A DNA stretch of 42,750 bases from an uncultured Alphaproteobacteria bacterium (lineage in GTDB: Bacteria > Pseudomonadota > Alphaproteobacteria > RF32 > CAG-239): positions 1-42,750 of the forward strand of contig CALXVR010000013.1 in NCBI GenBank assembly GCA_944392155.1, written 5' to 3'. Positions 18,171 to 21,201 of this stretch are shown here, piece after piece. Position 1 is the first letter of the stretch; the number at the start of each line of letters is the position of its first letter. A model generated the notes under the pieces. That model saw only the letters and a program-made list of their open reading frames with translations, had not been told where the DNA came from and made no database searches. The position numbers and the translations under genes are program-made.

Positions 18171-18527
18171 GTGCGGTTGGGTGTTGGATGCGACATAGAA
18201 GAAATAAGCCGTTTTGAAAAACTTATAAATAAACAGGAGTTTGTACGGTTGATTTATTTGCCGGATGAGGAGAAATATTGTCTGGGAAAAAGTCGGCCAC
18301 AACAGCATTTCGCCGCTATTTTTTGTGGTAAGGAAGCCGTTATAAAAGCTTTAGGAAATTTGGAAATTGATAAAATCGGTTTTTTGGATATGGAGATTTC
18401 ACATTTGCCGAATGGTTGTCCTCAAGTAAGAATTTTGAAAGAAATCGGTTGTGATTTAGAGGTTAAACTCAGTTTATCTCATTGTAAAACCATGGCTATG
18501 GCTCAAGCGACAGCCGTAATTCGCTAG
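18171..18527 (+). CDS. acpS: Holo-[acyl-carrier-protein] synthase
   Basis: 118 residues. AcpS transfers phosphopantetheine from CoA to apo-ACP for fatty acid synthesis. The magnesium-binding GCDIEEISRFEK (Asp8) and FCGKEAVIKAL (Glu55) motifs are both present. The start is GTG at 18171 with a GGAGAAG site nine bases upstream; it opens the conserved RLGVGCDIE strand. It lies 20 bases after the phosphoesterase gene. Confidence 0.93.
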   Translation: MRLGVGCDIEEISRFEKLINKQEFVRLIYLPDEEKYCLGKSRPQQHFAAIFCGKEAVIKALGNLEIDKIGFLDMEISHLPNGCPQVRILKEIGCDLEVKLSLSHCKTMAMAQATAVIR

Positions 18528-18615: not shown

Positions 18616-19215
18616 ATGGTACAAAAAATTATTGTTTGCAGTCGGAGCCAAGAAAAAACCGATGAAGTTAGGAATGTTTTGCAAAAATATGGAATAGAAG
18701 TTGTTTCCATTGCAGAGCTCGGTATTGAGAATTTGGACGATGTCAGGGATGTTGCTCGACAAGTGGGAGCTTTGGTTGCTTTGGATGTGGCAAATATGAC
18801 CGGAGAATGTTGTTTATGCGATGATTGCATGTTGACGGTTAACGCATTGGCAGAGCAGAAAAAAATGTTTAATTTGCGTATAGACGTTGAAAATGCAGAT
18901 AAGCAGATGGATGAAGTCTTGGATGTTTTGGGCAAAAATAATGAATATGACCGAAATGCGTTGATGACGTGTGTTTTGGTCTTGGCCTTTCCTTCAAACG
19001 GAGATAAGAAGCAAGAAACACATATGTTTTTGGGAGAGGTTAAAGGTCGTATTTCGCCGTTTAAGTATTCCGGTTCGGGAAATGATTTTGAACGGATTTT
19101 TTCGCCAAACGGCTATAGGCAGACTTTAGCTCAAATTCAGATTGAAGAAAAAAATCAGATTTCTCACGTCGGCGGAGCTTTGCATGATTTGGCTGCATTT
19201 TTGACGAATGAATGA
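18616..19215 (+). CDS. Degenerate Ham1/RdgB (ITPase)-like protein
   Basis: 199 residues. The order of Ham1/RdgB elements is clear: an N-terminal KIIVCSRSQEKTDEVRNVL strand-helix, a DD motif (69-70), GEVKGRIS at 140-147 and SPNGYRQTLAQIQIEEKNQI at 163-182. Key residues differ. The usual GFGYDPIF is GNDFERIF (155-162), the final SHR is SHV (183-185), and CDDCMLTVNAL replaces SDDSGLxVDAL. Canonical enzymes hydrolyse ITP, dITP and XTP; this one may be inactive or have a new substrate. Extra cysteines (ECCLCDDC, 64-71) are unusual. The leader TTTAGATAGATT has no ribosome site. Confidence 0.72.
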   Translation: MVQKIIVCSRSQEKTDEVRNVLQKYGIEVVSIAELGIENLDDVRDVARQVGALVALDVANMTGECCLCDDCMLTVNALAEQKKMFNLRIDVENADKQMDEVLDVLGKNNEYDRNALMTCVLVLAFPSNGDKKQETHMFLGEVKGRISPFKYSGSGNDFERIFSPNGYRQTLAQIQIEEKNQISHVGGALHDLAAFLTNE

Positions 19216-19233: not shown

Positions 19234-19265
19234 AAAGAGGTTCAGTTATGAGCCTCTTTTTTTTG
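19234..19265 (+). terminator. Terminator after the Ham1-like gene
   Basis: AAAGAGGTTC pairs with GAGCCTCTTT (one wobble or mismatch), followed by a T run. Confidence 0.75.
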
Positions 19266-19271
19266 TGAAGA

Positions 19272-19323: not shown

Positions 19324-19950
19324 ATGCCTGATTTTGAGTTGGAAAAAAGTTTGGATTGTATTGTTGCCGGCGTGGATGAGGCAGGGCGAGGACCTTGGGC
19401 CGGTCCGGTTGTTGCCGGGGCGGTGGTGATTGCTGACAAAAATTTGTGTCCGGAGCTCTTAAACGGACTTGATGACTCTAAAAAAATATCCTCTAAAAAA
19501 CGCGAAGTTTTGTATGAAAAGCTCCGTGAAGAAGAAAAACTCGGTAAAATTTATATCGGAATCGGGCAGGCGAGTGCTGAAGAGATTGATAAATATAATA
19601 TTTTGCAAGCCACATTCTTGGCGATGAGACGTGCTGCCGAAAATTTGAAGATTAAGCCTGAATTTGCGATTGTGGATGGTAACCAAACGCCGAAAAATTT
19701 TCCTTGCCCAACCAAAACAGTGGTCAAAGGTGATGCGCGCTGTATGTCTATTGCCGCGGCTTCTATTGCGGCAAAAGTTTATCGTGACCATTTGATGGCT
19801 GATTTGGCGCAAAAATATCCGTATTATGCTTTTGAAAAAAATGCGGGTTATGGTACAAAAGCACATATTGAAGGCTTAAAACAACACGGAGTTACGCCGG
19901 AGCACAGAAAGTCTTATCGGCCGATTCAGGAAATTTTACAAAAAGCTTAA
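19324..19950 (+). CDS. rnhB: Ribonuclease HII
   Basis: 208 residues. It cuts the RNA strand of RNA/DNA hybrids and removes single ribonucleotides from DNA. The catalytic acids are in VDEAGRG (Asp18, Glu19), the VDGN motif and GDARCMSIAAASIAAKVYRD. DDSKK and the final YGTKAH are further hallmarks. A TGGAGGA ribosome site precedes the ATG, unlike the orphan genes around it. Confidence 0.96.
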   Translation: MPDFELEKSLDCIVAGVDEAGRGPWAGPVVAGAVVIADKNLCPELLNGLDDSKKISSKKREVLYEKLREEEKLGKIYIGIGQASAEEIDKYNILQATFLAMRRAAENLKIKPEFAIVDGNQTPKNFPCPTKTVVKGDARCMSIAAASIAAKVYRDHLMADLAQKYPYYAFEKNAGYGTKAHIEGLKQHGVTPEHRKSYRPIQEILQKA

Positions 19951-20031: not shown

Positions 20032-20598
20032 ATGAACGCGAAAGAATTAACTCAAGCTCTGAATCAGATTCATCTTGAATGTAGTGTTATTGAAACTTTG
20101 CTTGCTCAATACAGAGCGCATGCAGGCAGTGAAAACATTAAACGTTTAGCCAGATTGCTTTCTGACATTCATATGAACTTTATCAGTGATATCACCGATA
20201 AATGGTGTCGGGAAGAGTTGGAAAAGCAGATTGAAAAATATGCTGATGTTTGCCGGCAGATTATGTATAAGCCGCAGATTATCAGTATTAATCCGCCAAT
20301 GCTGGTGGATGTTTTTAATGTTTTGTTACGAAGCTCATACAAGTATCTTTCTTCTGAAGATACGAAGCATGTGATGATTATAACGGCAAATATGATGGAA
20401 ATTGCCGATAGTCAATTATCGGAAGGCTTGTTTAATGAGCTCTTATATTGGTTTGAAGCATTGGATTTTGACGAGCCGTGGGAAGCTGTGGCCAGAATCC
20501 CCCGTGTCAAAGAAATGATACAAGAGGAACAAGACAAGATGATGCAACAGCATATTGAAAGAACCATTAAAAATGGTAAGAACTTTCCTAAGGCTTGA
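20032..20598 (+). CDS. Hypothetical helical protein, first of a tandem pair
   Basis: Not recognised. 188 residues, predicted all helical, no signal peptide. A middle segment (DVCRQIMYKPQIISINPPML and SYKYL) lines up with DICSWILMKPELRETYPPVF and EYKYL in the next gene, and RIPRVKEMIQ with RIPRFRKILE near both C-termini. The two thus look like diverged duplicates. It is translated from ATG behind TTTAGATATT with no ribosome site. The next gene begins 27 bases after its stop. Confidence 0.75.
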   Translation: MNAKELTQALNQIHLECSVIETLLAQYRAHAGSENIKRLARLLSDIHMNFISDITDKWCREELEKQIEKYADVCRQIMYKPQIISINPPMLVDVFNVLLRSSYKYLSSEDTKHVMIITANMMEIADSQLSEGLFNELLYWFEALDFDEPWEAVARIPRVKEMIQEEQDKMMQQHIERTIKNGKNFPKA

Positions 20599-20625: not shown

Positions 20626-21201
20626 ATGAAGCAAGAAAATATGCTTAAAGCTCTGAAAAGACTGTATTTGGTCTCAGAACTAACAGAAAGTGTATGCGCG
20701 CAAATTGCACATGAGGATGAATGGGAAAACAAGCTCTTGATGAAAGAGACTATTCTGAAGCTTATGGGGCAAAAAGATGACGGCAAAGTGAAAAATGATG
20801 AAGAATTAAAAGTCTGGAACTATTCCGTAATGTATCAATGTGTGATGCATTTTCAGGATATATGTTCTTGGATCTTGATGAAGCCGGAACTACGCGAAAC
20901 ATATCCGCCTGTTTTCGGTCATTTATTTGCTCAGCTTTGCAAGCTTGAATACAAATATTTGGAAGGGATTACGATTGCCGAGCAAGTGGCTGAGGTGCTG
21001 CTTGTATGGGAAGAAAAAATCCCAGACAAAGATTTGGAGGAAATGTTTGGGGTCTTTCTGATAGAGAATCTTTGCTTGGACGAGCTTAATAGAATTCCTC
21101 GTTTCAGAAAGATTTTGGAAAACGGAAATGTTGATGGCTTGCCATCTGATGAAGAGTTAGTGAGATTTTTGTCGGGGTTCAAAGATTTGCCCTCGGCATA
21201 G
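20626..21201 (+). CDS. Hypothetical helical protein, second of a tandem pair
   Basis: Not recognised. 191 residues, helical and acidic, cytoplasmic by appearance. It shares the MKPELRETYPP region and the C-terminal RIPRFRKIL motif with the preceding gene. They form a two-gene operon closed by a terminator at 21217. No ribosome site is visible before ATG. The conserved KP-N5-PP core suggests a family with its own fold. Confidence 0.75.
   Translation: MKQENMLKALKRLYLVSELTESVCAQIAHEDEWENKLLMKETILKLMGQKDDGKVKNDEELKVWNYSVMYQCVMHFQDICSWILMKPELRETYPPVFGHLFAQLCKLEYKYLEGITIAEQVAEVLLVWEEKIPDKDLEEMFGVFLIENLCLDELNRIPRFRKILENGNVDGLPSDEELVRFLSGFKDLPSA

Follow-up and report, generated by a model that had tools for sequence, protein, structure and literature searches.

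In the genome of an uncultured alphaproteobacterium, a second gene of the Ham1/RdgB type, here named ham1b, encodes a protein that has probably changed its job relative to RdgB, since the residues used for recognition are replaced and a conserved cysteine cluster has been gained. The explanation that we favour, at roughly even chances, is that Ham1b is a duplicated paralogue without ITPase function that acts as a binding or regulatory protein. In molecular terms, it is probably a pseudoenzyme or binding protein carrying an added CxxC or thiol site.

Locus and family assignment

The ham1b open reading frame occupies exactly positions 18616–19215 (+) of the window (the whole stretch of DNA that was analysed, 42,750 nucleotides) and encodes 199 amino acids. 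The locus contains the following features:

18171..18527 (+), acpS-like gene, upstream neighbour of ham1b in the closest species of the window only
18616..19215 (+), ham1b, divergent Ham1/RdgB-fold paralogue of 199 aa with a non-canonical active site
19235..19267 (+), terminator-like hairpin (AAGAGGTTCAGTTATGAGCCTC, then a T-run) between ham1b and rnhB
19324..19950 (+), rnhB (RNase HII), conserved downstream neighbour of ham1b

The original prediction of a Ham1/RdgB relative is borne out by a match to Pfam PF01725 (Ham1p_like; 94.9 bits, cut-off 22.5, profile positions 1–185 of 186) and by a fold match with Z of about 21–22, and the motifs it had read (GEVKGRIS, NGYRQTLAQ, EEKNQISH, GNDFERIF and SHV) are all present. 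On its sequence and model, Ham1b is a member of the Ham1/RdgB superfamily fold. All NCBIfam RdgB equivalog cut-offs are nevertheless missed by a wide margin, among them that of TIGR00042 (77.9 vs 145.35), as is the NF011397 cut-off (89.1 vs 234). By these cut-offs, as well as by its SHR arginine, metal glutamate and base pocket, Ham1b appears to fall outside the RdgB XTP/dITP diphosphatase family. When the genome (1.63 Mb, 53 contigs) was searched by protein family, exactly one other Ham1 protein was found, the fully canonical RdgB of contig C24 (Ham1p_like, 237.8 bits), which is the second, canonical rdgB envisaged at the outset.

The five genomes of the genus that carry ham1b share the gene order ham1b, rnhB, two ORFs, ccrM and ppx. 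A ham1b–rnhB operon was considered and rejected: the hairpin with its T-run separates the genes in 5/5 species (as read from the alignment; the automatic consensus scan did not list it), which makes cotranscription unlikely. The two ORFs between rnhB and ccrM (20032–20598 and 20626–21201, about 190 aa each) match no family above the cut-off; they are positionally conserved in the five ham1b species and fast evolving, with identities of 48–57 % vs 81–83 % for rnhB (G002/G003). Upstream, the acpS-like gene is accompanied by a second ACPS-domain gene elsewhere in the genome (G000:C2:85670), and the window copy is unusually divergent, with 67–69 % protein identity between close species and a dS of about 1.5 vs 0.14–0.47 for neighbour genes.

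A M16-peptidase-like protein with no recognisable HxxEH zinc motif adjoins or replaces ham1b in G002, G003, G004, G006 and G015. Its genes are located as follows:

L066:6653–7825 (-), M16-like gene
L065:6652–7824 (-), M16-like gene
L077:7367–8527, M16-like gene
L078:8267–9448 (-), M16-like gene
L079:7310–8482, M16-like gene

The M16-like gene is absent from the window's own ham1b locus and has homologues (about 29–43 %) in many further genera of the family; the two genes have been gained or lost independently of each other at this single locus.

Active-site residues

Five Ham1b orthologues were aligned to E. coli RdgB, used for residue numbering only, and to 73 canonical Ham1 proteins from the class. 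The segments concerned are the following:

18646..18657 (+), S11–K14 (preceded by S9–R10), canonical T/S-x-N-x-x-K loop; N10 replaced by Ser, K13 kept
18739..18780 (+), D42–A55, canonical EETGxTFxENAxxKA; E41, F46, N49 and K53 all replaced
18808..18828 (+), C65–C71 (CCLCDDC), cysteines flanking the retained DD pair; PCLADDS in canonical proteins
19078..19101 (+), G155–F162 (GNDFERIF), base-pocket motif; canonical GFGYDPIF
19147..19173 (+), E178–G186 (EKNQISHVG), K177 and H182 kept; the SHR arginine is Val

Among the 52 canonical positions conserved to ≥90 %, 24 are kept in all five Ham1b proteins and 28 are not. The residues K13, E16, D68, D69, K177, S181 and H182 (E. coli numbering) are retained in 5/5 orthologues; in Ham1b's own numbering, K14, D69, D70, K179, H184 and V185 are invariant, K14 and D70 corresponding to the catalytic residues K13 and D69 of the E. 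coli enzyme. Changes found in all five proteins are N10 to S, F46 to A, N49 to V, I or T, K53 to V, S70 to C, G71 to M or T, F154 to N, S or T, G155 to D, P158 to R and R183 to V. The metal-ligand Glu (E. coli E41, human E44), present in all canonical proteins and assigned its role in E. coli numbering by alignment, is D, D, D, E and R in the five orthologues. At D157, four orthologues have Glu and one retains Asp. The SHR arginine (human R178, E. coli R183), Arg in 73/73 canonical proteins, is Val in 5/5, and the base pocket GFG[YFW]D (human F149) is replaced by GNDFE, GSDFE or GTDFD.

Mutation of K13 in E. coli RdgB abolishes activity and N10A leaves 30 % (PMC8893687), while the crucial residues of human ITPA include E44, D72, F149 and R178 (PMC9016069). 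In ITPase, Arg178 and Phe149 read the purine base; R178 is essential, as even R178K fails complementation, and F149 excludes GTP (PMC5075207). The loss of R183 and F154 should therefore remove base recognition, and that of E41 should remove one metal ligand; from the sequence, we infer that Ham1b is without ITP/XTP pyrophosphatase activity. The earlier idea of a nucleotide sensor becomes less likely, since the base pocket, with the equivalents of Arg178 and Phe149, is lost.

K13 and D69 both matter in genuine RdgB enzymes, and since Ham1b retains them it may have some hydrolytic activity on a different substrate. A neofunctionalised hydrolase, cleaving a phosphoanhydride (of a nucleotide or otherwise) that RdgB rejects, is conceivable but unlikely; it would use the equivalents of K13, D68/D69, K177 and H182, perhaps with a thiol-bound metal replacing E41. 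Such activity would agree with the invariance of K14, D69, D70, K179 and H184 in five species and with the fixation of R160 for a near-invariant Pro and of V185 for an invariant Arg, which resembles a rebuilt pocket. The Maf family carries an SxSPRR motif, with Ser at the N10 position, and the N10-to-Ser change of Ham1b resembles this Maf state. On the other hand, E41, N49 and K53, invariant among the 73 canonical homologues, are all lost, and position 42 varies between D, E and R among species, so that no metal ligand is conserved there.

The cysteine cluster

The four cysteines C65, C66, C68 and C71 flank D69–D70, align with the SDDSGL segment and, like the two aspartates, are invariant in the five Ham1b species. 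The original prediction had placed four cysteines and two Asp near residues 64–71 at the SDDSGL site, in a loop whose conservation in orthologues was to be checked; the position and the conservation stand, whereas only three of the cysteines are new, because C66 is Cys in 44/73 canonical homologues, and the aspartates are the canonical DD pair, kept rather than rewritten. C119 is likewise ancestral (Cys in 73/73). At the new cysteines, the canonical state is mostly Pro for C65, Ala, Gly or Ser for C68 and Ser (73/73) for C71; C68-D-D-C71 constitutes a CxxC.

The highest number of Cys within seven residues is four in Ham1b vs two in 22 other ORFs of the window, where the background frequency of Cys is 1.2 %. 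In residues 59–78, 16/20 positions are invariant vs 93/199 overall (p 0.0016, the segment having been picked post hoc). The codons of C65, C66 and C71 switch between TGT and TGC with the residue unchanged. The pattern exceeds chance, because the substitutions are common to five species and the Cys codon changes are synonymous only.

Predicted structure

An AF2 model from the five orthologues alone reached a pLDDT of 41, and one with 12 viral Ham1 sequences added reached a pLDDT of 85.1 and a pTM of 0.83; as viral canonical homologues were needed in the alignment for folding, the model is biased to the canonical fold. It matches S. aureus Ham1 (4bnq; Z 22.0, rmsd 2.2 over 181 residues), E. coli RdgB–ITP (2q16; Z 21.3) and the P. 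horikoshii NTPase (Z 21.3). Viral scans with single-protein queries returned nothing beyond the queries themselves. Residues 65–75 of the model form one continuous beta-strand (DSSP) that carries all four cysteines, which makes a simple four-Cys site within one subunit awkward. With these conserved candidate ligands on a predicted single strand, Ham1b may still be the metal sensor that was first suggested.

Distribution, selection and evolutionary history

Orthologues of ham1b occur in four other members of the genus (G001, 92 % identity; G005, 89 %; G003, 60 %; G002, 52 %). None of them has the canonical residues that would have refuted the original prediction, and a local mutant or sequencing error is ruled out by the same rewritten residues in five species. 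The gene is missing from 2/7 genus members, G004 (92 % complete) and G006 (99 % complete), both of which have a contig with the intact locus. A search through 152 genomes of the family gave just one further high-scoring match, a protein of G015 (genus g10), 33 % identical. Its gene is likewise found upstream of rnhB, separated from it by an M16-like gene; this location supports orthology independently of the tree. In two genomes of the set (G007 and G021; L023 and L027), RNase PH and RdgB share a single open frame of 439–445 aa, a probable Rph–RdgB fusion. A literature search found no description of a Ham1 paralogue like Ham1b in open-access papers, an absence that is not proof.

By analogy with Ham1 proteins, which are homodimers, Ham1b could pair with RdgB in a mixed dimer and so modulate the canonical enzyme. 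The whole predicted fold is kept, and a canonical rdgB coexists in every ham1b-bearing genome of the genus; however, ham1b and rdgB are not neighbours, and RdgB occurs without Ham1b in G004 and G006, so that such a regulatory partnership seems improbable.

Pairwise dN/dS is 0.08–0.24 for ham1b and 0.05–0.07 for rnhB in unsaturated pairs, several distant saturated pairs having been excluded. The gene is therefore conserved, and these values make a pseudogene unlikely. A decaying duplicate heading for loss, with no selected function, would fit the absence of ham1b from two intact loci and its faster evolution than that of rnhB, but it is very improbable in view of the dN/dS, the undamaged frames in six genomes and the cysteine strand, which is among the best-conserved parts and shows only synonymous Cys codon changes.

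In the tree, the five Ham1b proteins form a clade (100/100, stem 1.41), which G015 joins at 81/90 (two long branches, not starred). The class outgroup is separated from every family row, those of ham1b among them (76/86, not starred), an arrangement compatible with a duplication inside the family. The G015 protein shares with Ham1b the loss of E41, F46, N49, K53 and F154 and a longer hairpin, keeps N10, S70, G71 and SHR, and has none of the cluster cysteines except C66. Being half-changed, with SHR kept and the new cysteines absent, it indicates that the catalytic side changed first; if G015 is a true orthologue, this suggests that the phosphate/metal side was altered first and the base arginine and thiols later.

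Functional implications

The favoured reading, a binding or regulatory pseudoenzyme, would have arisen when rdgB was duplicated within an alphaproteobacterial family, before the window's genus and g10 separated. The original rdgB would have stayed to clean ITP/XTP. The ham1b copy has lost the catalytic-metal and purine-reading residues and kept the predicted fold. It has also acquired a CxxC-bearing cysteine cluster, which under purifying selection has become fixed in all five species. Derivation from a house-cleaning enzyme, as proposed originally, together with departure from that role, is well supported by the canonical second copy, the cysteine loop kept in orthologues and the missing catalytic and recognition residues. 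Ham1b would no longer hydrolyse ITP/XTP, its leftover Lys, Asp and His may hold a phosphate-containing ligand, and the thiols on the DD strand might be a redox- or metal-responsive element. A more doubtful proposal is that a house-cleaning nucleotidase has become a thiol- or metal-responsive protein, in which the CC-x-CDDC strand and the residual phosphate pocket would link the binding of a ligand to its redox or metal state.

Ham1b offers a clean natural example of a near-universal housekeeping enzyme that was duplicated and then re-engineered stepwise, with the G015 intermediate suggesting the order in which active-site residues went and with the catalytic strand now bearing a conserved thiol cluster. 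The Ham1 fold would gain a pseudoenzyme or a new activity. The hosts form a small set of uncultured bacteria of gut type with a normal RdgB beside the second Ham1-fold copy, and such copies should not be annotated as RdgB.

Comparison with known systems

KomB of the Kongming defence system (PDB 8zsg, 9v0g, 9xvc) is, like Ham1b may be, a Ham1-fold protein turned to a non-housekeeping role, in its case as a complex subunit, and the model matches KomB structures with Z 16.5–18.0. A dITP or nucleotide sensor of such an anti-phage system is nonetheless extremely improbable: sequence similarity is low (E 0.0015 and 0.064 for KomB/HAM-like entries vs 1e-14 for housekeeping Ham1), the base-reading residues are lost and the chromosomal neighbours are conserved. 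A defence role is largely ruled out by the lack of a PADLOC match and of any SIR2_2 protein; no KomC-type SIR2 partner was found in the genome, PF13289 being the one family searched for Kongming partners.

The Maf pyrophosphatases (YceF, YhdE and B. subtilis Maf) are related in fold (Z 8–9) and share the Ser at the N10 position; no Maf model appears in the Ham1b Pfam list up to E 1, and the assignment is Ham1p_like. Four other alphaproteobacteria (G351, G209, G424 and G078; L161–L164) likewise have a second, low-scoring Ham1 beside the canonical one. Unlike Ham1b, these copies have other motifs (EDTDF, SDTGL, EDGGF and GGGYNAIF) and no Cys cluster, and they apparently represent separate lineages.

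With RdgB/ITPA/Ham1 (PF01725, TIGR00042), Ham1b shares the full-length fold, K13, D68, D69, K177, S181, H182 and EKNxISH. It differs by the replacement of N10, E41, F46, N49, K53, S70, G71, F154, G155, P158 and R183, by additional residues in the hairpin that precedes GEVKG, by the CCxCDDC cluster and by its coexistence with a canonical copy.
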